Shown: positions 1 through 11,129 of the stretch, piece after piece
Layout of the letters: each line of letters begins with the position of its first letter
How positions within the stretch are numbered: the stretch's first letter is position 1
Assembly (NCBI GenBank): GCA_902790905.1
Contig: CADATO010000002.1
Span: 1-64,000, forward strand
From: an uncultured Eubacteriales bacterium
GTDB lineage: Bacteria > Bacillota > Clostridia > Peptostreptococcales > Anaerovoracaceae
Length of the DNA: 64,000 nucleotides
Reading direction: 5' to 3'
Translations under genes and position numbers: made by a program
The notes under the pieces: generated by a model
Seen by the model: the letters and a program-made list of their open reading frames with translations, nothing else
Databases searched by the model: none
Told to the model about the DNA's origin: nothing

Positions 1-96
1 GCTGTAAATGTTGAAATTCCAACGATTTATCCGGTTGTTAATGAGAAAAGCCCCGGCTTGGCGGATCGCCAAGTCCAGGACTTTGTCTACAGTCTG

Positions 97-128
97 ACCC
101 TGCAGTTGCCTGCAGGGTTTTATTGTTG
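97..128 (+). terminator. Rho-independent terminator of a transcript entering from the left
   Basis: A 9-bp perfect stem (97-105 with 110-118, loop TTGC) is followed by TTTTATTGTT on the + strand. The T-rich tail is on the rightward side, so it best ends a rightward gene lying off the left edge, convergent with hutH. Read leftward the hairpin has no T tract. Another perfect hairpin (57-73, CTTGGCG-GAT-CGCCAAG) lies just before it and may help end the hutH transcript. I could not assign positions 1-96 to a gene. Confidence 0.6.
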
Positions 129-143
129 CGGGAAGGGAGTTCT

Positions 144-1763
144 TTATTCGCTCTTCTTGCCGAATTCGTCTCTGAACTGCTCCCATGCGTTGTTCTCGAG
201 CATCTCGGGCATGTACTCGTCGATCAGATCGAGCAGATCCTTGCGGCGGATGAAGGCCTCAGCCTTGCGAATATCCGGCCACAGTTCTCTGTCCACTTCG
301 TAGAAGGGGATCTCTCTGCGGAACATGTTGTAGACATGCTGATGGAACGGGCTGAGTTTCTGGCCGTGCGTGTTCAGGCGCTTGCGGATGTCAATCGCCT
401 GGCAGGCAGTGAGCAGTTCCAGTGCGAGGACGGACAGCGTGTTTTGGACGATGTCGCGTGCCTTTCTGGCTGCCGTCGTACCCATGGAGACGATATCTTC
501 CTGGTTGGCCGAGGAAGGAATCGAGTCAACGGATGCCGGATGTGCCAGAACTTTGTTCTCAGAAACCATGGAAGCCGCTGCGTACTGCACGATCATGTAG
601 CCGGAGTTGACGCCGGGCTCTGTGGTCAGGAACGGTGTCAGGCCGTTGGAGAGGGCCGGGTTGACCATGCGCTCGATGCGGCGCTCGGAGATGTTGGCGA
701 TCTCGGAGCAGGCGATGCCCAGAAGGTCGAACGGGATCGCCATCGGCTCGCCGTGGAAGTTGCCGCCGGAGATGACGGCTTCATCGTCCGGGAAGATCAG
801 CGGGTTGTCTGTGACTGCATTGATCTCGATGTCGACTTTGTGGATGACGAACTGCAGTGCGTCGCGGACAGCGCCGTGAATCTGCGGGATGCAGCGGAGT
901 GCATACGCATCCTGGACACGGTCCTGCTGGCAGTTGTCGAGGATCTCGGAGCCTTCGAGCAGCATACGCATATTGTCTGCAACGAGGATCTGGCCCTTGT
1001 GGCCTCTGGCCTCGTGGATACGCGGGTCAAATGCATTGCGCAGACCGGTCAGCCCTTCGAAGGTCATGGAAGCAATGACGTCGGCCATTTCTGCTGCGCA
1101 GATGGAGTCGTACAGTGCCAGTGCGCCGCAGGATGTCATCGCGCAGGTGCCGTTGGTCATGCCAAGGCCTTCCTTGCAGACCAGCGTATCAACGGTCTTG
1201 ATGCCGGCGCGCTTCATTGCCTCTGCGCCGGGCAGCACTTCGCCCTGGTATTTGGCTTCGCCAAGACCGAGGATCGGCAGTGTCATGTGCGCGAGCGGGG
1301 CGAGGTCGCCGGAGGAGCCGAGCGAGCCTTTTTCAGGAATCACCGGCAGAACGTTCTTGTTGAGCATCTCGACCATGATCTCCGCGAGCAGCGGACGGAC
1401 GCCGGAGAAACCGACCAGCAGGTTGTTGACTCTGAGCAGCAGGATGCCGCGGACGATTTCATCTGCGTACGGTTCGCCGCAGGCGGTGCAGTGGCTCAGG
1501 ATCAGGTTGGTGGAGAGCTGGTTGGACATCTCTTCCGGGACAGCGACCTTCTGGAAGTCGCCGAAACCGGTCGTGATCCCGTAGGTCGGCTTGCCGGATT
1601 TCTGAATCTTTTCAGTCAGTTCTCTGGATTTCTGCATGCGTTCCAGTGCTTCCGGTGCGATCTTGACAGGAGCATGAAAACGTGCAGCTGCGATGAACTC
1701 TTCAAAGACCAGGCTGCGGCCGTCGAGCGTGACCTCTTTGATGTTAGACGGATTGTATTTCAT
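144..1763 (-). CDS. hutH: Histidine ammonia-lyase
   Basis: HutH deaminates L-histidine to trans-urocanate and ammonia in the cytoplasm, the first step of histidine catabolism. The 539 residues match the family length. The substrate-side tyrosine motif (YGITTGFG, from Tyr61) and the GDLAPLAH segment after the electrophilic MIO cofactor site are present. The residues expected to cyclise to MIO read Ser150-Ser151-Gly152 instead of the textbook Ala-Ser-Gly. The start is preceded by AAGGAGG with about 8 nt spacing. It is the last gene of a leftward hutU-hutI-hutH operon, 24 nt after hutI. Assignment is firm; the effect of the Ser substitution is unknown. Confidence 0.96.
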   Translation of the reverse strand: MKYNPSNIKEVTLDGRSLVFEEFIAAARFHAPVKIAPEALERMQKSRELTEKIQKSGKPTYGITTGFGDFQKVAVPEEMSNQLSTNLILSHCTACGEPYADEIVRGILLLRVNNLLVGFSGVRPLLAEIMVEMLNKNVLPVIPEKGSLGSSGDLAPLAHMTLPILGLGEAKYQGEVLPGAEAMKRAGIKTVDTLVCKEGLGMTNGTCAMTSCGALALYDSICAAEMADVIASMTFEGLTGLRNAFDPRIHEARGHKGQILVADNMRMLLEGSEILDNCQQDRVQDAYALRCIPQIHGAVRDALQFVIHKVDIEINAVTDNPLIFPDDEAVISGGNFHGEPMAIPFDLLGIACSEIANISERRIERMVNPALSNGLTPFLTTEPGVNSGYMIVQYAAASMVSENKVLAHPASVDSIPSSANQEDIVSMGTTAARKARDIVQNTLSVLALELLTACQAIDIRKRLNTHGQKLSPFHQHVYNMFRREIPFYEVDRELWPDIRKAEAFIRRKDLLDLIDEYMPEMLENNAWEQFRDEFGKKSE

Positions 1764-1787
1764 ACTTGGGCCTCCTTATGAATGCGC

Positions 1788-3029
1788 TTAGTGATGCACA
1801 ATGTTCCCATTTTTGATAACTGTATTGACCAGGTTGCTGCCCATGCGGTAGCCGAGGTAGTCGAGGTCCGGTGCATTCCACAGGACAAGATCCGCCTGCT
1901 TGCCCGGTTCGACAGAACCAGCTTTTTCAGCAAGTCCGATGGCTGCTGCCGCATTGAGTGTGACGGCGGTCAGCATTTCCTCCGGCGTCATCCGGTATTT
2001 CAGGCAGGCGAGGTTCATGACCAGCTGGATATTCAGGCTCGGGCAGGAGCCCGGGTTGAAGTCCGTTGCAGCGGCGACGGGGACGCCGGCTTCGATCATG
2101 TCTCTTGCTGGTGCATAGGTCGCGCCGAGATAGAAGGAGGTCGCTGGCAGCAGGCAGGCGATGGTGCCGCCTTCTGCGAGCGCCTTGATGCCGGACGGCT
2201 GGCAGACGATCAGATGCTCTGCGGAGATCGCTTTGACATCCGCTGTCAGTTCGCTGCCGCCGATGGCTTCGATCTCATCTGCGTGGATCTTCGGAATGAG
2301 GCCGTGCTTTTTCCCGGCCTCGAGGATGACGCGGCTTTCTTCCGCTGTGAAAACGCCTTTTTCACAGAAGACGTCGCAGTAGTCGGCGAGGCCTTCGGCT
2401 GCGACTTCCGGGATCATCTCTTCGCAGAGGAAACGGATGTATCCTTCTCTGTCATCTTTATAGTCTTCCGGCAGGGCATGAGCGCCGAGGAATGTCGAGC
2501 GCACATCCATGCAGTGCTCCCGGCCGAGCCGGCGGATGACGCGGAGCTGTTTCAGTTCGGTCTCGCGGTCGAGTCCATAGCCGCTCTTGGCTTCCATACT
2601 GGTGATGCCGAGGGTCAGCATTTCGTCCAGCGCTTCTTTGGCTTTCTGATAGAGCGATTCCTCGGTGGCCTCACGGGTTGCCCTTACGGTGGACAGGATG
2701 CCGCCGCCGCCCGCCAGGATATCCAGATATGTGGCGCCGTGGAGCTTGAGCCCCAGCTCGTTCTGCCGCCAGCCGCCGAAGATGAGGTGCGTGTGCGCAT
2801 CGACCAGGCCGGGGGTGACGAGTTTGCCGCCCGCATCGATCAAGGAGAGGTCTTCCTGCGGGATCTGCTGCCAGCTGTCGCCGGTGCCGGTCTGCTTGAT
2901 GAGGCCGTCTTCCGCGAGGATCCAGGCATTGTTCTGCAGCAGGATCTGTCCCTGGGCAGGCCCTGCTTTGGCGGCGCTCCCGGTGGGGGTCGCAAGCAGG
3001 CCGATATTGTGGATCAGTAGTCTGTTCAT
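1788..3029 (-). CDS. hutI: Imidazolonepropionase
   Basis: HutI hydrolyses 4-imidazolone-5-propionate to N-formimino-L-glutamate, the third step of histidine breakdown. The 413-residue protein has the amidohydrolase fold: an N-terminal beta segment, the metal-binding DAHTHLIFGG motif at about residues 77-86, later His residues in KIHADE and SAEHL contexts, and the ATDFNPGS segment with the conserved Asp near residue 318. It starts 9 nt after the hutU stop with a GAGGACC-type ribosome site, so it is translated from the same leftward message as hutU and hutH. Confidence 0.96.
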   Translation of the reverse strand: MNRLLIHNIGLLATPTGSAAKAGPAQGQILLQNNAWILAEDGLIKQTGTGDSWQQIPQEDLSLIDAGGKLVTPGLVDAHTHLIFGGWRQNELGLKLHGATYLDILAGGGGILSTVRATREATEESLYQKAKEALDEMLTLGITSMEAKSGYGLDRETELKQLRVIRRLGREHCMDVRSTFLGAHALPEDYKDDREGYIRFLCEEMIPEVAAEGLADYCDVFCEKGVFTAEESRVILEAGKKHGLIPKIHADEIEAIGGSELTADVKAISAEHLIVCQPSGIKALAEGGTIACLLPATSFYLGATYAPARDMIEAGVPVAAATDFNPGSCPSLNIQLVMNLACLKYRMTPEEMLTAVTLNAAAAIGLAEKAGSVEPGKQADLVLWNAPDLDYLGYRMGSNLVNTVIKNGNIVHH

Positions 3030-3038
3030 GGCAGGTCC

Positions 3039-5051
3039 TCAGTCTTTTTTCAGCGCTTTTTCGACCAGTGCATCATCTGCGACATAGGGCAGGGTGATGT
3101 GGTCTTTGCCTTCGTACATCTTGTTGTATTCAGCTGCCACTTCCATGGCGTGTTCGTTGCGCGCCCAGTTGCGGCGGGAAACGCCGACCATGGTATCCCA
3201 GGGCATTGCCATCTTGAGGATCTCGTCGACGCGGTCGGAGCCGTCGAGCACCATGCCGAAACCGCCGTTGATGGCATTGCCGATGCCGGTGCCGCCGCCG
3301 TTGTGCAGGGCGATGTAGCTCATGCCGCGCGCCGCGTTGCCTGCGAAGCACTGGGTTGCCATCTCCGCCATGATGTTGGAACCATCCTTGATGTTGGATG
3401 TCTCACGGAACGGTGCATCGGTACCGCCGGTGTCGTGGTGGTCACGGCCGAGGATGACCGGACCGATCTCGCCTTTGCGGACCATGTCGTTGAACTTCAG
3501 CGCGATGTTCATGCGGCCCATCGCATCCTGATAGAGGATACGGCACTGGGTGCCGACGACGAGCTTGTTCTTCTTTGCGTCACGGACCCAGACGTAGTTG
3601 TCGTAGTCCTGGTAACGTCTGTTGTGGGCGAGGATGTATTCCGCAGCGGCAGCGTCTGTCTTGTCCAGATCTTCCGGGTTGCGGGACAGGCAGCACCAGC
3701 GGAACGGGCCGTAGCCGTAGTCGAAGAGGCAGGGGCCGAGGATGTCTTCCACGTAGGACGGGAAGATGAAGCCGTCCAGGTCGTTCTCGCCGTTCTTGCA
3801 GATGCTCTTGACGCCTGTGTCGTAGACAGCCTTCAGGAAGCTGTTGCCGTAGTCGAAGAAATAGGTGCCTTTTTCGTGGAACTTGCAGATCATCTCATAG
3901 TGATGCTGCAGGGTCTTGTCAACCAGCTCATGGAATCGCTCAGGATCCTCTGCCAGCATCTCGGTGCGCTGCTCGAAGGTCAGTCCCTGCGGGCAGTAGC
4001 CGCCGTCGTAGGGGACGTGGCAGGAAGTCTGGTCACTCATCAGGTCGACGTGGACATCCTTCTCATACAGGTACTCGAGCAGATCGACGATGTTGCCGTG
4101 ATAGGCGACAGCACAGGGGGTGCCTGCTTTCTGATGCTCCTGCGCGATGGCCAGGGCTTCTTCGGCGGAGTCCGTTCTGTGGGAGACCCAGCCCTGCGTG
4201 TATCTCGTTTCGATACGGGAGTCGTCGACTTCCGCGATGATCGAGGCGGCGCCTGCGATCTCGGCAGCTTTGCCCTGCGCACCGCTCATGCCGCCAAGAC
4301 CGGCGGAGATGAAGAGTTTGCCTGCGAGGTTGCCGTCGTTGGGGATGCCCAGCTTGAGGCGGCCTGCATTGAGCAGGGTGTTGAAGGTGCCGTGGACGAT
4401 GCCCTGCGGTCCGATGTACATCCAGCCGCCCGCGGTCATCTGGCCGTAGTTGGCGACGCCCAGCGCTGCAACGCGGTTGAAGTTCGCCTGGTCATCAAAT
4501 GTACCGACCATCAGGCCGTTGGTGATGATGACGCGCGGCGCCAGTCTGTGCGAATGGAACAGCCCGAGCGGGTGACCGGACATAACCACAAGCGTCTGGT
4601 CGTTCTGCATGACTTCCAGGTACTTCTTGATCAGACGGTACTGCATCCAGTTCTGGCAGACCTGGCCGGTCTCACCGTAAGTTGTCAGCTCATAGGGGTA
4701 CAGGGCGACATCAAAGTCCAGATTGTTGTCGATCATGACCTGGATGGCCTTGCCCTCGATGCAGGCGCCTTTGTATTCGTCGATCGGTTTGCCGTAGAGC
4801 TTGCCTTCCGGGCGGAAGCGGTATCCGTAGATCCGGCCGTGCTCTTCAAGTTCCTGCGCGAATTCTGCAGCCATCTGTTCGTGGTGATCCGGATGGATGT
4901 AGCGCAATGCGTTCTTGATAGCAAGCGCCTTGTCTGCTTCACTTAGTTTGGATTCTCTTTTCGGTGCTCTGCGGTACCCATCCTCCATCTTCGGATAGGC
5001 AGGCAGTTCATAGTCAAGTTTGATAGTCATAGCGTCCATGTATTCATTCAT
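3039..5051 (-). CDS. hutU: Urocanate hydratase
   Basis: Urocanate hydratase adds water to urocanate to give 4-imidazolone-5-propionate, using tightly bound NAD+ as an electrophile. The 670-residue protein contains the glycine-rich SAGLGGMSGAQGKA segment of the nucleotide-binding domain and the GRDHHDTGGTDAPFRET active-site region. The frame stays open 41 codons further upstream, but that extension would translate through the two palindromic operators. I chose the ATG at 5051 because a GAGGTG ribosome site precedes it and family similarity starts there. It is the first gene of the leftward hut operon. Confidence 0.95.
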   Translation of the reverse strand: MNEYMDAMTIKLDYELPAYPKMEDGYRRAPKRESKLSEADKALAIKNALRYIHPDHHEQMAAEFAQELEEHGRIYGYRFRPEGKLYGKPIDEYKGACIEGKAIQVMIDNNLDFDVALYPYELTTYGETGQVCQNWMQYRLIKKYLEVMQNDQTLVVMSGHPLGLFHSHRLAPRVIITNGLMVGTFDDQANFNRVAALGVANYGQMTAGGWMYIGPQGIVHGTFNTLLNAGRLKLGIPNDGNLAGKLFISAGLGGMSGAQGKAAEIAGAASIIAEVDDSRIETRYTQGWVSHRTDSAEEALAIAQEHQKAGTPCAVAYHGNIVDLLEYLYEKDVHVDLMSDQTSCHVPYDGGYCPQGLTFEQRTEMLAEDPERFHELVDKTLQHHYEMICKFHEKGTYFFDYGNSFLKAVYDTGVKSICKNGENDLDGFIFPSYVEDILGPCLFDYGYGPFRWCCLSRNPEDLDKTDAAAAEYILAHNRRYQDYDNYVWVRDAKKNKLVVGTQCRILYQDAMGRMNIALKFNDMVRKGEIGPVILGRDHHDTGGTDAPFRETSNIKDGSNIMAEMATQCFAGNAARGMSYIALHNGGGTGIGNAINGGFGMVLDGSDRVDEILKMAMPWDTMVGVSRRNWARNEHAMEVAAEYNKMYEGKDHITLPYVADDALVEKALKKD

Positions 5052-5097
5052 AATCGCACCTCGTTCAAATAATGCGTCAGAATTATTTAACAAATCT

Positions 5098-5127
5098 ATT
5101 TTACCACAGAACGTGGGCTTTGTTTCA
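5098..5127 (-). promoter_or_regulatory. Predicted hutU operon promoter
   Basis: Read leftward, TGGTAAAAT (5106-5098) is an extended -10 box. The -35 region is poor (GAAACA with 17-bp spacing) and lies inside the first palindrome (5122-5138). A weak -35 covered by an operator suggests regulation at this point, possibly with an activator, but the transcription start (about 5091) is only predicted. Confidence 0.45.
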
Positions 5128-5160
5128 CACCATGAAACTTTTTGTTTCACACCATGAAAC
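5122..5160. promoter_or_regulatory. Two tandem identical palindromic operators between hutU and ftcD
   Basis: GTTTCACACCATGAAAC occurs twice, at 5122-5138 and 5144-5160. Each copy is an inverted repeat (GTTTCA-N5-TGAAAC). They start 22 bp apart, about two helical turns, so two dimers could bind the same DNA face. They sit between the divergent histidine-catabolic transcripts, and the second copy lies about 60 bp from each predicted transcription start. No regulator gene is adjacent, and the site does not match a motif I can name with confidence. Confidence 0.75.
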
Positions 5161-5178
5161 TTTTTTTGCTTCATACGG

Positions 5179-5206
5179 TGTACAAAGGCGACTTAGATGA
5201 TATGAT
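5179..5206 (+). promoter_or_regulatory. Predicted ftcD promoter
   Basis: TGTACA (5179-5184, four of six consensus bases) and TATGAT (5201-5206) are separated by 16 bp, upstream of the ftcD ribosome site. The -10 box is good and the -35 mediocre, which fits control by the palindromes at 5122-5160. Confidence 0.45.
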
Positions 5207-5281
5207 GGGTGAGAACCGTGACCTGACGGATCCGCAGAGCGATTCCCCGGATCCATAGTTAATAAAAAGAGGAGTAACATC

Positions 5282-6196
5282 ATGGCTAAACTTATCGAAT
5301 GTATCCCCAATTTCAGCGTCAGCAAAGAGCGCGAACCTGAAAAGTATCAGGCGCTCGTGGACCTGGCGCAGTCCATGCCCGGCTGCACGCTGTTTGATGC
5401 GCAGACAGACGGTAACCATAACAGAAGTGTATTCACACTGATCGGCAGCCCGGAGGGCATCGAAAATGCTGCCTTTGAGCTGACCAAAAAAGCGGCCGAA
5501 CTGATTGACATGAATAAACACGAAGGCCAGCATCCGCGCATGGGTGCAACGGACGTCATGCCGTTCGTTCCGCAGAGCAGAGACGTCACACTGGAAGAGT
5601 GTGTTGCGCTGTCCAAGCGCGTTGCAAAACGGATCTGGGACGAGCTCCAGATCCCGTCGTTCCTGTATGAAGACTCCGCGACAAGACCGGAGCGCCGCAA
5701 CCTGGCGAAGTGCCGCAAGGGCCAGTTTGAAGGAATGCCGGAAAAACTGCTCCAGGAAGAGTGGGCACCTGATTTCGGCGAAAGAAAGATCCATCCGACT
5801 GCAGGCATCATGGCGATCGGCGCCCGCATGCCGCTGGTAGCGTTCAACGTCAATCTGGACACAGATGATCTGGAGATCGCGAACAGCATCGCCAAGGCGA
5901 TCCGTGGCTCCTCCGGCGGCTTCAAGTACTGCAAGGCGATCGGCGTTATGCTCGAGGAGAGAAACATCGCGCAGGTATCCATGAACATGGTCAACTATGA
6001 AGGGACACCGCTTTACTACGCTTATGAGATGATCCGTGCACTGGCTGACCGCTACGGGGTTAAGATCATCGGCAGTGAGGTCGTCGGGCTGACACCTGCA
6101 AAGGCGCTGATCGACTGCGCGGAATACTACCTGAAGATCGAGAACTTCAGCTGCCATGATCAGGTCATCGAATACCACCTGATCGACATGAAATAA
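5282..6196 (+). CDS. ftcD: Glutamate formimidoyltransferase
   Basis: This enzyme transfers the formimino group of N-formimino-L-glutamate (the HutI product) to tetrahydrofolate, releasing glutamate. The 304-residue protein corresponds to the stand-alone N-terminal half of eukaryotic FTCD: it opens with LIECIPNFSVSKEREPEKY and carries the HPRMGATDVMPFVP segment around residues 82-95. An AGAGGAGT ribosome site precedes the ATG. It is followed after 48 nt by the matching cyclodeaminase, so two cytosolic proteins do what one fused protein does in animals. Divergent from hutU, it completes the pathway. Confidence 0.95.
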   Translation: MAKLIECIPNFSVSKEREPEKYQALVDLAQSMPGCTLFDAQTDGNHNRSVFTLIGSPEGIENAAFELTKKAAELIDMNKHEGQHPRMGATDVMPFVPQSRDVTLEECVALSKRVAKRIWDELQIPSFLYEDSATRPERRNLAKCRKGQFEGMPEKLLQEEWAPDFGERKIHPTAGIMAIGARMPLVAFNVNLDTDDLEIANSIAKAIRGSSGGFKYCKAIGVMLEERNIAQVSMNMVNYEGTPLYYAYEMIRALADRYGVKIIGSEVVGLTPAKALIDCAEYYLKIENFSCHDQVIEYHLIDMK

Positions 6197-6244
6197 GACC
6201 TGTATATAATGAACTCTTCTGAAGAGGGAAAGGGAGATGGCAGC

Positions 6245-6877
6245 ATGGCAGAAAAACTGATTGAGTATGATGTAAAGAAATTTGCGGATGTGATGGCCTC
6301 CGATGCACCGGCACCGGGCGGCGGCTCCGCTTCGGCACTGGCAGGAGCACTTGGCAGCGCGCTGGTGTCTATGGTCTGTGCACTGACACAGGGGCGTGAA
6401 AAGTACAAAGAATATGAAGAAGAAACCGCTGCTGTGATGGCTGCCGCACAGACTTTAAAAGACCAGCTTCTGGAAGCAGTCGATTCGGACACAGATGCGT
6501 TCAATGCAGTCAGCGCTGCATTCGGGATGCCCAAATCGACCGACGAGGAAAAAGCCGCCCGCAGCAAGGCGATCCAGGAGGGGATGATCCTTTGCATCGA
6601 ATCGCCGCTGGCGATGATGCATAAGAGTCTGGATGTGCTGCAACTGGCGCAGCGCGTGGCTGCTGGTTTTAACACTTCCAGCGCCAGCGACCTTGGTGTC
6701 GGTGTGCTGCTCGTCAAGGCAGGCCTTCACGGGGCATGGCTGAATGTCAAAATCAATCTGGGCAGCTTGAAAGACAAAGAGAAGGCAGTTGCCTATGAAG
6801 AGGAGGCGAAGGGCATTCTGCAGGAAGCATCTGCGCTCGCAGACAGCCTTTACGAAAAGATCGAAGAAATGCTCTAA
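6245..6877 (+). CDS. fchA: Formiminotetrahydrofolate cyclodeaminase
   Basis: FchA converts 5-formimino-THF to 5,10-methenyl-THF and ammonia, delivering the histidine-derived one-carbon unit to folate metabolism. The 210 residues are the size of the stand-alone cyclodeaminase family, are mostly helical, and carry the hallmark SDAPAPGGGSASALAGALG loop near residues 18-36. The frame is open 12 codons upstream (from 6209), but GGGAGATGG lies just before the ATG at 6245 and similarity begins there. It is co-transcribed with ftcD. Confidence 0.93.
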   Translation: MAEKLIEYDVKKFADVMASDAPAPGGGSASALAGALGSALVSMVCALTQGREKYKEYEEETAAVMAAAQTLKDQLLEAVDSDTDAFNAVSAAFGMPKSTDEEKAARSKAIQEGMILCIESPLAMMHKSLDVLQLAQRVAAGFNTSSASDLGVGVLLVKAGLHGAWLNVKINLGSLKDKEKAVAYEEEAKGILQEASALADSLYEKIEEML

Positions 6878-7017: not shown

Positions 7018-8214
7018 TTATTCGCCCAGTTCCTCTTTCAGTACGCGGCCCATGATCTGGCATGCTTCTTCGATGACTTCCTTCGAAGGTGTCGAGTAGC
7101 AGATGCGGAACGCGCTGCCGGGGTAGTTCTCCGGATCGGCGGAGAAACCGAAGGAGGGGACAACGCCGACGTTGGCTTCCATCAGTTTGTGCCAGACTTT
7201 GTCCAGGTCGAGTGTTTCGGGCACTTTCAGCCACAGGAACAGACCGCCCTTGGGCTCGATCGGCTCGCAGGAAGCGGGCAGGTACTTTTTGATGCATTCC
7301 ATCATCCAGGCAGCTTTTTCTTTGTAGAAGGCACCGACATCCTTGCAGTGCGCGTCGATATCGTTGTGCTGCATATAGCCCGCAACGGTCAGCATGACCG
7401 GAACGGACTGCACGCCCGCATTGCCCTGGGACATCTCGAGGAAGGGACGCAGGTCCTTGTTGACCACGAAGAAGCCAATGCGCATGCCGGAACTGACGAT
7501 TTTGGACAGCGATGCTGCATAGACAACGCGGCCATCGGTGTCGTATTTTTTGATCTCTTTCAGGTAGTTGCCGTCAAAGCTCAGACGCGAATACGGATCG
7601 TCTTCGTAGATCATGAAGTCGTACTTCTGCGCCAGCTTGTAGACAGCTTCTCTCTTATACTCCGGCAGTGTGATGCCGGTCGGATTGTTAAAGGAGGGGC
7701 ACAGATAAAGGAATTTAACCTTCTCGCCGTACTCCTGGATTGTCTTCTCAAGGGCTTCCAGATTGATGCCGTCGTCATCCATCTCGACGCCGACCAGTTT
7801 GGCGCCGACCATGCGGGCGGCATTCTGGATGCCGGGGTATGCAAACATCTCCGACAGGATGACATCACCTTCATCACAGAAGGTGTTCGCCATATTGTCC
7901 ATGCCGTGGCCGCTGCCGGGCAGGATCTCGATCGCGTTGTTCTCCATATCAAAACCGCGGGCGATCATCCATTTGCGAATTTCTTCGATGCATTCATCCA
8001 TACCTGGATAGGGGCCGTAAGCAAGCGCCTTCTTACCATCATATTTGTACATGTCCGCGCTGGACTTTGCGATCTCGTCGAGCGGAAAGGTGTCCGCGGA
8101 AGGTTCGCCGATGGACAAGTCGAGGAATTCGGGGTGGTCGCATGCATACATGAAGATCTGACGGATCACGGTCGGGTGGGCCGTTCTCAGCTGTTTCGCC
8201 AATTTATATTCCAT
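7018..8214 (-). CDS. PLP-dependent aminotransferase, class I/II (2-aminoadipate transaminase-like)
   Basis: The 398-residue fold-type-I aminotransferase should exchange amino groups between an amino acid and a 2-oxoacid in the cytoplasm. Visible motifs are LSIGEPSADTFP near the N terminus, CPSFNNPTG in the middle (Asn contacting the pyridoxal), YEDDPYSRL (the Asp pairing with the ring nitrogen) and the Schiff-base lysine in SLSKIVSSGMRIGF. It resembles the LysN/2-aminoadipate or MocR-catalytic-domain group but has no N-terminal winged helix. AAAGGAACAGG precedes the start. It diverges from a 2-oxoacid:ferredoxin oxidoreductase operon, so it may supply that enzyme's oxoacid. Substrate is not resolved. 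Confidence 0.85.
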   Translation of the reverse strand: MEYKLAKQLRTAHPTVIRQIFMYACDHPEFLDLSIGEPSADTFPLDEIAKSSADMYKYDGKKALAYGPYPGMDECIEEIRKWMIARGFDMENNAIEILPGSGHGMDNMANTFCDEGDVILSEMFAYPGIQNAARMVGAKLVGVEMDDDGINLEALEKTIQEYGEKVKFLYLCPSFNNPTGITLPEYKREAVYKLAQKYDFMIYEDDPYSRLSFDGNYLKEIKKYDTDGRVVYAASLSKIVSSGMRIGFFVVNKDLRPFLEMSQGNAGVQSVPVMLTVAGYMQHNDIDAHCKDVGAFYKEKAAWMMECIKKYLPASCEPIEPKGGLFLWLKVPETLDLDKVWHKLMEANVGVVPSFGFSADPENYPGSAFRICYSTPSKEVIEEACQIMGRVLKEELGE

Positions 8215-8295
8215 GTTTGAAACCTGTTCCTTTCTTAAAGCATGATCCGGATGGAGTGATAAGGATCATTGGGATCACGGTGTCGATACACCTTT

Positions 8296-8325
8296 ATAAT
8301 ATAGTTGGAATTTGTTCTCTGTCAA
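8296..8325 (-). promoter_or_regulatory. Predicted aminotransferase promoter
   Basis: Read leftward: TTGACA (8325-8320), 18-bp spacer, TATTAT (8301-8296). The -35 is a perfect consensus. The inverted repeat at 8279-8292 lies in the initially transcribed region and could be an operator. Confidence 0.6.
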
Positions 8326-8395
8326 TGGAAATGGAATATTGTATAATGTATATTTTATTTTTTATATTTAACATCAGGTATTTCATACAAAACAA

Positions 8396-8424
8396 TTGAC
8401 AGAAAAACTGTGTAATTCTAAAAT
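8396..8424 (+). promoter_or_regulatory. Predicted kor operon promoter
   Basis: TTGACA (8396-8401), 17-bp spacer, TAAAAT (8419-8424), in an AT-rich region. A weak CodY-like 15-mer overlaps the -35 (8394-8408, 11 of 15 matches to AATTTTCWGAAAATT); it is too degenerate to call a site but would fit an amino-acid-linked operon in a codY-bearing genome. Confidence 0.7.
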
Positions 8425-8538
8425 TAAAGCGAAAAATGTCGATCCGAAGGAGTGAAAAAGGAGCGGCATTGCAAGCGGTGCGATACCGTCCGTTACAGCT
8501 GGTTGGATAATAATCAACTTGTTTTGAAAGGAGCAGAA

Positions 8539-8748
8539 ATGGTTCAAATCGACTATGCACATGACAGGTGCAAAGGTTGTCATTACTGCATTGATGTATG
8601 CCCGAAAAAGGTTATCTCGCTGAGCGGGGAACTCAATGACAAGGGATACGAGACAGTTAAGTTTGATACATCCGGATGCATCGCATGCGGGTCCTGCTAT
8701 ACAGTGTGCCCGGATTATGCGATCACGGTGATCAAGAAGGAGGGATAG
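8539..8748 (+). CDS. korD: 2-oxoacid:ferredoxin oxidoreductase, ferredoxin-like delta subunit
   Basis: A 69-residue dicluster ferredoxin with two CxxCxxCxxxC motifs (CKGCHYCIDVCP and CIACGSCYTVCP), each binding a [4Fe-4S] cluster. It passes electrons from the TPP-containing subunit to free ferredoxin. The frame continues upstream to a GTG at 8452, but that start has a badly spaced ribosome site, whereas GAAAGGAG precedes the ATG at 8539 and ferredoxin similarity starts there. It is the first gene of a tight korD-korA-korB-korC operon. Confidence 0.93.
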   Translation: MVQIDYAHDRCKGCHYCIDVCPKKVISLSGELNDKGYETVKFDTSGCIACGSCYTVCPDYAITVIKKEG

Positions 8749-8752
8749 AGCG

Positions 8753-9835
8753 ATGGCAGACAATCAGGTTATCATGAAGGGCAATGAAGCCATGGCCGAA
8801 GCTGCGATCCGCTCCGGCTGCAGACTGTTCAGCGGCTATCCGATTACTCCGCAGACAGAGATTCTAGAATACATGGCATGGAGAATGCCCGAAGTTGGCG
8901 GCACGATCGTACAGACTGAAGACGAGCTTTGCGGGATTTACATGCTGTTCGGTGCCAGCGCAGCAGGCGCCAGAACACTGTCCACTTCGGCAGGCCCCGG
9001 CTACTCGCTGTTCCAGGAAGGCATTTCCTACCTGGTCGGCTCGGATCTGCCGGCTGTTCTGGTAGACGTTACCCGTATCGGCAATGCGCTTGGCGATATC
9101 AGCCAGTCGCAGGGCGATTACGAACTGGTCACAAAGGGCAACGGCCACGGTGACACCATGGTCCCGGTCTTCACTCCGAACTCGGTCCAGGAGATCGTTG
9201 ACGACACGGTCATGGCCTACGACATGTCCGAGAAGTACAAGCACCCGGTCATCCTGCTGTATGATGCGGCGATCGGCCAGATGATGGAAGGCGTCACGCT
9301 TCCCGATATGCATGAGCATGACATCAACAAGTACGACTGGTCCGTCAAAGGCATCAAGAAGGGTGAACACGGCAGAAAGATCACTAACGTATCCTACTTC
9401 TGCGAGGATATGTATGTTGGTTATGAAAAGTATCTCCGCGACAAGTATGCGCAGATCACCGAGAATGAGCAGCGCTGGGAGAGCATCGGCGTAGAGGACG
9501 CGGAAGTCGTCACGATCGCTTACGGCATCTCCTCCAGAGTCTGCAAGGAAGCTGTCCTTCACGCAAGAGAGCAGGGCATCAAGCTCGGTCTGATCAGACC
9601 GAAGATGGTTGTGCCGTTCCCCGTGAAGGCATTCGATGAGATCGGTCCCAACTGCAAGGGCCTCATGGTCGTCGAGATGAGCATCAAGGGCCAGATGGTC
9701 AACGATGTAGCGCTCGCTTCCAGATGCAAGTACCCGATTTACGGATACCTGACATCCTATGAAGTTCCTGAAAGTGACAAGGTCATCGAGATCGCAAAAG
9801 ACATCCTTGCCGGCAACGCAAAGGAGGTGTTCTAA
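8753..9835 (+). CDS. korA: 2-oxoacid:ferredoxin oxidoreductase alpha subunit
   Basis: The 360-residue subunit holds the pyrimidine-binding transketolase-like domain and the C-terminal transketolase domain II of the enzyme that oxidatively decarboxylates a 2-oxoacid to its acyl-CoA with reduction of ferredoxin. Diagnostic segments are GNEAMAEAAIRSGC, GYPITPQTEILEYMA and STSAGPGYSLFQEGI. It starts 4 nt after korD and stops directly before the korB ATG. Subunit layout fits the 2-oxoglutarate (KOR) or branched-chain (VOR) types rather than pyruvate oxidoreductase; the true substrate cannot be fixed from sequence alone. Confidence 0.92.
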   Translation: MADNQVIMKGNEAMAEAAIRSGCRLFSGYPITPQTEILEYMAWRMPEVGGTIVQTEDELCGIYMLFGASAAGARTLSTSAGPGYSLFQEGISYLVGSDLPAVLVDVTRIGNALGDISQSQGDYELVTKGNGHGDTMVPVFTPNSVQEIVDDTVMAYDMSEKYKHPVILLYDAAIGQMMEGVTLPDMHEHDINKYDWSVKGIKKGEHGRKITNVSYFCEDMYVGYEKYLRDKYAQITENEQRWESIGVEDAEVVTIAYGISSRVCKEAVLHAREQGIKLGLIRPKMVVPFPVKAFDEIGPNCKGLMVVEMSIKGQMVNDVALASRCKYPIYGYLTSYEVPESDKVIEIAKDILAGNAKEVF

Positions 9836-10582
9836 ATGGCAGATAAGATCTTTACCGCTCCTGAAATGCTCAGAATGAGCGATCCGACCGGTTTCTGCCC
9901 CGGATGCGGGCATGGTACCGCAGGCAGACTGCAGTTTGAAGTACTGGACGAGATGGGCCTTCTGGAAGACTCCATCACGGTCTACGACGTAGCATGCGAC
10001 TCCCTTTATATGTGGGCGATTGATACGGACTGCGTCGGCGTCGCACACGGGCGCGCCATCGCGGCAGCGTGCGGTGTAAAGCGTACCCGTCCGAACAATC
10101 CGGTATGCGCATACGTCGGTGACGGTGCGACCTATTCGATCGGCATTCAGCATACCATCTGGGCGGCAGCCAGAAACGAGAACATTACCGTCATCGTCAT
10201 CAACAACGGTGTATTCGGTATGACAGGCGGCCAGATGGCACCGACCACACTGCTGGGCCAGAAAACCATCACGACACCTGCCGGCAGAAGCCGTGAGATG
10301 AACGGGCAGCCGCTCGATGTCGTCAAGCTGTTCACCGGCATGGATATCGCATACCTCGCAAGAGGCAGCCTGGACAGCGTTGCCAGCATCAACAAGACCA
10401 AGAAATATATCCGCAAGGCATTTGAGAAGCAGATGAACGGAGAGGGACTGAGCTTCGTTGAGATCCTTTCTCCGTGCCCCACCAACTGGGGACTCTCGCC
10501 GCAGGATTCTCTCAAGCGTATCAGAGAAGTTGTCGAGGATGTATATCCTTTGGGTGAGTTCATTGAAAGGGGCGTGAAGTAA
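9836..10582 (+). CDS. korB: 2-oxoacid:ferredoxin oxidoreductase beta subunit (TPP-binding)
   Basis: The 248-residue beta subunit binds thiamine diphosphate-Mg2+. The TPP motif runs from GDGATYSIG to VIVINNGVFGM (about residues 99-125), and FCPGCGHG near the N terminus provides Cys residues typical of the family. The following GGQMAPTT segment is usual for KOR and VOR enzymes. Its ATG directly follows the korA stop and the korA tail supplies AAGGAGG as ribosome site, indicating tight translational coupling. It works with KorA, KorC and KorD as one cytosolic complex. Confidence 0.92.
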   Translation: MADKIFTAPEMLRMSDPTGFCPGCGHGTAGRLQFEVLDEMGLLEDSITVYDVACDSLYMWAIDTDCVGVAHGRAIAAACGVKRTRPNNPVCAYVGDGATYSIGIQHTIWAAARNENITVIVINNGVFGMTGGQMAPTTLLGQKTITTPAGRSREMNGQPLDVVKLFTGMDIAYLARGSLDSVASINKTKKYIRKAFEKQMNGEGLSFVEILSPCPTNWGLSPQDSLKRIREVVEDVYPLGEFIERGVK

Positions 10583-10583
10583 T

Positions 10584-11129
10584 ATGTTGACTCAGATGGT
10601 TTGTGCAGGGTTTGGCGGCCAGGGCATCCTGACCACCGGGATCCTTATCGCGAATGGCGCATTCAACAGCGGCAAGCGCATCACCTGGTATCCGTCCTAC
10701 GGTTCGGAAATGCGCGGTGGCACCGCCAACTGCACCATCAAGATGACCGATGACGGCGAAGAGATCGCCAGCCCTTATGCGAAGGAACTCGATATCCTGC
10801 TCGGCATGAGCGCGCCGGCAATCGCCAAGTTCGTCGATCAGATCAAGCCCGGCGGCTGGCTGTTCGTCAACTCCTCCATCGTTGAGGAAAAGGAATACCG
10901 CGATGATATCCATGTCGTGAACGTTGACACCGTGGCACTGGCTGAGAAAGCGCAGAACCCGAAGGGCGGCAACATCGCGATGATCGGCGTCATCCTGAAG
11001 AAGACCGGCATCATCTCGGTCGATGCGTTCGAAGAATCGATCATCAAGTATTTCACAGAGCACGGTAAAGCAAAGTTCAACGAAGGCAATGTCCGCGCGC
11101 TGCGTGTTGGCTACGACAGTGTAGACTAG
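10584..11129 (+). CDS. korC: 2-oxoacid:ferredoxin oxidoreductase gamma subunit
   Basis: The 181-residue gamma subunit opens with the family signature GFGGQGILTTG and continues with YGSEMRGGTANCTIK around residues 40-54. This domain binds the CoA-side of the complex. It begins 1 nt after the korB stop and closes the four-gene operon. All four expected subunits are intact, so the enzyme should be functional. Confidence 0.92.
   Translation: MLTQMVCAGFGGQGILTTGILIANGAFNSGKRITWYPSYGSEMRGGTANCTIKMTDDGEEIASPYAKELDILLGMSAPAIAKFVDQIKPGGWLFVNSSIVEEKEYRDDIHVVNVDTVALAEKAQNPKGGNIAMIGVILKKTGIISVDAFEESIIKYFTEHGKAKFNEGNVRALRVGYDSVD

Follow-up and report, generated by a model that had tools for sequence, protein, structure and literature searches.

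Twin palindromes in the spacer between two divergent operons of a hut cluster probably switch both operons. The palindrome GTTTCACACCATGAAAC is present in two identical copies at positions 5122-5138 and 5144-5160 of the window (the whole 64-kb stretch of DNA that was analysed), within the 230-bp spacer that divides hutU-hutI-hutH from the divergent ftcD-fchA. Each copy reads GTTTCA-CACCA-TGAAAC, with a gap of 5 bp (TTTTT) between the copies and a centre-to-centre distance of 22 bp. A preliminary description of this DNA had reported two identical GTTTCA-N5-TGAAAC copies 22 bp apart between the operons, and both the sequence and the coordinates proved to be exact. The half-sites of the array alternate at 11-bp steps, so that the two inner ones make up a further perfect dyad of inverse orientation, TGAAAC-TTTTT-GTTTCA (5133..5149). 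Tandem Repeats Finder identified the region enclosing both copies (5119..5165) as a perfect 22-bp tandem duplication (period 22, 2.1 copies, 100 % match), which received the top score in the window. A possible degenerate third copy, GCTTCATACGGTGTACA (5168..5184), matches at 8/12 arm positions and is located over the -35 element of ftcD, where it would give the region symmetry. This match is not significant and was given little weight, because an equally good one was found in 12 % of the shuffles.

The minus-strand genes hutH (histidine ammonia-lyase, 144..1763), hutI (imidazolonepropionase, 1788..3029) and hutU (urocanate hydratase, 3039..5051) and the plus-strand gene ftcD (glutamate formimidoyltransferase, 5282..6196) all scored above the NCBIfam equivalog cut-off. 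The last gene of the plus-strand operon (6209..6877) is fchA-like (formimidoyl-THF cyclodeaminase / methenyl-THF cyclohydrolase); its product matches FchA with 191.8 bits, which is under the cut-off of 275, and Pfam FTCD_C well above the cut-off. The hut and ftc genes are followed by an aminotransferase gene and a three-gene 2-oxoacid:ferredoxin oxidoreductase (7018-11129), which would suit the fermentation of glutamate derived from histidine.

Promoters and transcription starts in the spacer are predictions throughout. The hutU promoter on the minus strand (5098..5126) is predicted as GAAACA-17-TAAAAT with a start near 5091, and the ftcD promoter on the plus strand (5179..5206) as TGTACA-16-TATGAT with a TG before the -10 element and a start near 5213. 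The centre of copy 1 falls at -39 from the predicted hutU start and at -83 from that of ftcD, and the centre of copy 2 falls at -61 from both. The earlier placement of copy 1 over a weak hutU -35 therefore holds for the predicted promoter, and the distance of about 60 bp between copy 2 and both predicted starts can be refined to 61 bp from its centre to each. The predicted ftcD leader also contains an inverted repeat, GGATCCG...CGGATCC (5228-5254), and folding of this leader was no better than that of shuffled sequences.

To judge the role of chance, we searched the 2.0-Mb genome and shuffled the spacer. Exact matches are confined to the two spacer copies, with ~0.06 expected genome-wide from base composition. 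The motif is thus not found at random positions over the genome, an outcome that the preliminary description had regarded as speaking against its proposal. Places with one mismatch number four elsewhere in the genome, three within coding sequence and one extending into a gene start, which rules out a genome-wide regulon; one of them (C19) has a weak match to LysR at a distance of 400 bp, which was discarded since the site lies within coding sequence. In dinucleotide shuffles of the 230-bp spacer, some palindrome with 6-bp arms and a spacer of 3-8 bp arose in 29 % and one with a spacer of exactly 5 bp in 6 %, and an identical twin palindrome was obtained in 0/3000. Further twin palindromes are absent from the 64-kb window. 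Hence, the duplication exceeds chance, whereas a lone palindrome of such size does not.

The idea that the motif marks hut genes in relatives was not borne out. None of the 109 fetched hut loci (1.5 Mb) contains the exact site, and the only four places with one mismatch are single and scattered. In six loci (L048, L051, L052, L053, L056 and L058) ftcD is likewise divergent from hutU, with spacers of ~200-370 bp and no intervening gene, and these spacers contain no palindrome. Searches for the full twin array gave no hit in 393 further genomes of the order (up to 3 mismatches allowed), none of them from the window's genus, or in 390 genomes of the class (up to 2 mismatches); the two sets overlap by ~20 genomes and together comprise ~760. 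Absence upstream of hut genes in relatives, named beforehand as an argument against the proposal, was thus found for the homologous loci, in a sample without a second genome of the same genus. Within the family, 42 of 198 genomes have an exact match, with roughly 56 matches in all. About two thirds of the 30 matches that were read lie within open reading frames and none adjoins recognisable hut genes, and the motif was rejected as a family-wide hut marker. The plasmids scanned gave no match, and a literature search for the motif string found none.

A search for a regulator in the genome covered several families. In the window, the two operons neither enclose nor directly adjoin a regulator gene, the contig starting 143 bases past the hutH stop, and none was recognised among the reading frames listed after hutH in three loci of the same gene order (L064, L068 and L074). 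The statement that HutC is not encoded agrees with the lack of a UTRA (HutC-type) match in the genome, which is 97 % complete; the same search gave matches in 8 of 14 control genomes. Ten LysR-family genes were found well over the cut-off, together with one weaker match. None of the ten is an ortholog of the hut-linked LysR described below (best ~28 % identity over the full length), and none carries the motif in its promoter. Among XRE-type genes (18 HTH_3 matches in the genome), the motif was found before none of 17, the reading frames having been picked automatically so that a few may be wrong; the best front reached 9/12 arm positions, as in random stretches. An XRE-cupin regulator suggested by L136 was rejected, as it has no close counterpart in the genome. 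One gene of the HisR/YerC family is present and located among unrelated genes. A co-occurring regulator gene, which the preliminary description had proposed to look for, was not found in these searches, and the motif defines no histidine regulon. Taken together, the interpretation given in that description is partly supported, namely in the promoter placement, the lack of a linked regulator gene, the lack of a UTRA gene in the genome and the restriction of the site to a single place.

A closer look at the homologues of hutU suggests that the hut cluster (window 1-6877) was probably acquired horizontally. Among named genomes, the closest hutU homologues are mostly from Oscillospirales, with up to 90 % identity, versus 63-70 % to the genome's own family. 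The topA gene on the same contig shows the reverse, with 57-66 % identity to family members and 51-57 % to most other families of the order (61 % to one of them), and it is this opposite affinity on which the inferred transfer is based. Misbinning of the contig was rejected because of the family affinity of topA and a composition that agrees with the other contigs of the genome.

In the Oscillospirales, the hut loci carry what appears to be a conserved LysR-type switch. Of 16 loci examined, 14 have a dyad resembling ATAC-N7-GTAT whose centre is at exactly -65 from the predicted hutU start (L040-L044, L046, L047, L049, L054, L060, L087, L106, L109 and L116), and L070 has such a dyad at -66. Two of the loci (L054 and L116) contain a second dyad at -43, which is 22 bp closer to the predicted hutU start. 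A LysR-family gene is divergent from hutU and adjoins it in L041, L043, L054, L060 and L116, with the assignment confirmed by Pfam for L041 and L043; the reading frames listed beside hutU in L040 and L046 do not resemble LysR. The DNA covered by regulators of the LysR type usually spans 50-60 bp and comprises a recognition site with T-N11-A, often around -65, as well as an activation site around -35 (PMC8407307), and the dyad at -65 in the Oscillospirales loci putatively represents this usual layout. This by-product, a conserved putative LysR-type hut switch at a constant -65, is perhaps more useful than the array itself. Both the ATAC-N7-GTAT dyad and the divergent lysR gene are missing from the window. 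Other hut loci contain a different regulator gene: in L063, an HMM-checked gene of the YerC/TrpR family (HisR-like; 8288-8632, minus strand) adjoins hutH/hutU, and stretches similar to it are found upstream of hutU in L065, L067, L075, L076, L084 and L095.

That the array is a protein-binding twin operator, be it LysR-like or repressor-like, is rather likely. Our preferred form of this reading, held tentatively, is a twin operator specific to this lineage, to which a dimeric regulator encoded elsewhere in the genome would bind, with a layout that is most LysR-like. Evidence for an operator comes from the perfect dyads 22 bp apart at a single place in the genome, from their centres relative to both predicted starts and from the weak hutU -35. 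Each copy also holds a symmetric T-N11-A, although this is a loose criterion, and a LysR-like form is further favoured by the dyads and divergent lysR genes of the Oscillospirales hut loci and by the ten or more LysR-family proteins that the genome encodes. Against an operator, the motif is found at hut genes in no other genome examined, and both promoters and starts are predicted; against a LysR-like one, the window has no linked lysR gene, the ten LysR genes of the genome include no ortholog of the hut-linked LysR and none with the motif in its promoter, and the half-sites differ from ATAC-N7-GTAT. As the palindromes occur at one spot only, they point to no particular regulator.

According to the proposed mechanism, two neighbouring dimers would occupy the same DNA face at a distance of two helical turns. 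From -61, copy 2 could serve both divergent promoters, and a regulator on copy 1, over the poor hutU -35, would contact RNA polymerase when an intermediate of the histidine pathway is present. The analysis established the sequence of the array, its uniqueness, its place relative to the predicted promoters and a LysR-type layout in homologous hut loci; that any protein binds, to which family it belongs, what induces it and whether it activates or represses are inferences. A further-reaching scenario, in which the hut cluster lost its LysR switch after acquisition from another order and a new twin operator recruits a host regulator of a family new to histidine catabolism, appears improbable. If the array is indeed an operator, it would be a compact example of a horizontally acquired catabolic cluster that was rewired to host regulation. 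The finding is real, but modest and fairly ordinary, and the array is unique to one genome.

Instead of an activator, the array could serve a repressor of another family (e.g. of the XRE/Cro, IclR or DeoR type). The protein on copy 1 would then deny RNA polymerase access to the hutU -35 until released by an inducer, and copy 2 would add cooperativity. We consider this unlikely, although it is the most serious of the alternatives. The position of copy 1 over the predicted hutU -35 and the 18 HTH_3 matches in the genome are in agreement with it, and two sites elsewhere point to XRE-type proteins. One, on a virus-derived contig (L171, 12389-12427), is a pair of GTTTCA-N5-TGAAAC dyads that are likewise spaced by 22 bp; it has the same 24 arm bases with different spacers and is located 60 bp upstream of an XRE-type gene. 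The other is in a genome of the same family (G112), where the identical 17-mer precedes the gene of an XRE-cupin regulator. However, this second match may be due to chance among the roughly 56 family matches, the XRE-cupin gene has no close counterpart in the genome, and the motif precedes none of the XRE genes examined.

The viral array was accompanied by a few other observations. The 26 bases GTTTCATATTATGAAACATTTTGTTT are identical between positions 12389-12414 of L171, the viral contig, and positions 1501-1526 of L133, where the site is bacterial, intergenic and from the same family. A scan of viral contigs for three half-sites yielded coding matches in L172 and L175 one site before small phage genes that is shared by L173 and L174, and a match of ambiguous setting in L176; these matches gave no pointer to a regulator.

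It is also conceivable, though again unlikely and slightly more so than a repressor site, that the array has no function and arose when a 17-bp palindrome, present by chance in the AT-rich spacer, was copied once by replication slippage between T-runs. The frequencies in shuffled spacers given above (6 % for the same arms and spacer length, 29 % for a comparable palindrome) are in line with such an origin. The copies are identical even in the CACCA spacer and the flanking T-run, as expected of a recent duplication, and the array was found neither in the other genomes searched nor in homologous hut spacers. Such duplications are rare, however, with no other twin in the 64-kb window and 0/3000 in the shuffles, and both period and position suit the promoter geometry of the two operons.

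The two remaining readings, an RNA element and a target of a known histidine regulator, are highly improbable even if taken jointly. Hairpins with U-runs that act as a terminator or leader structure would fit the folding of the duplicated region, which is more stable than that of shuffled sequences (z ~ -2.8 on the plus strand; the minus-strand fold took in downstream sequence). This reading is very doubtful, as neither transcript would include the array according to the predicted starts, the terminator scan detected no terminator-like site, Rfam gave no match in 4900-5400, and a gain in stability of this kind is expected from any duplicated palindrome. Least probable of all is a site for the Gram-positive histidine regulator HisR (TrpR/YerC family) or for HutC: although the genome holds one HisR/YerC-family gene, homologous loci (e.g. 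L063) have a YerC/TrpR-type gene adjoining hut, and a paralog of hisR has been described next to hutH and hisT in Oscillibacter (PMC9413887), the published site differs in half-site and symmetry, the gene in this genome sits with unrelated genes, and a UTRA/HutC gene is lacking.

We finally compared the array with known systems. An operon controlled by HutC would call for a GntR/UTRA-type HutC in the genome, which has none. HisR operators share with the window a palindrome at histidine-related genes and the presence of a HisR-family gene. The Firmicutes HisR site, cacTTTAnnnnnnTAAAgtg, is an even-centred 20-bp dyad, and its published targets are histidine biosynthesis and transport (PMC9413887); the GTTTCA-N5-TGAAAC of the window is in contrast odd-centred, and the hut spacer contains no near-match to the HisR pattern. 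The viral array of L171 resembles the window in all four half-sites, the 22-bp spacing and the position upstream of a start codon. It differs in its viral origin, in spacers that vary between its copies, and in an XRE-type gene downstream with no hut genes seen, whereas the genes flanking the array in the window are hutU and ftcD and not, as in XRE-type operators, an XRE gene directly downstream.

The closest likeness is to LysR-type divergent promoters (PMC8407307). Here, the promoter region between the divergent catabolic operons of the window contains two dyads 22 bp apart, and a symmetric T-N11-A is present in both. The dyads are centred at -61 and -39 from the predicted start, compared with the dyad near -65 of the class, and copy 1, which overlaps the weak predicted -35, corresponds to a second site two to three turns away. 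Unlike in these systems, both sites are identical in sequence and no cognate lysR gene is adjacent and divergent, and since no such gene could be tied to the array, we did not file it as a LysR-type promoter. The differences from the putative Oscillospirales switch (L041, L043, L054 and L116) concern the half-sites (ATAC-N7-GTAT versus GTTTCA-N5-TGAAAC), the position (-65 versus -61, the window dyads being 4 bp closer to the start) and the lysR gene divergent from hutU, which is present in the Oscillospirales loci checked and lacking in the window. Common to both are homologous hutU and ftcD genes and a dyad upstream of hutU, and in L054 and L116 the two dyads have the same 22-bp spacing as in the window.
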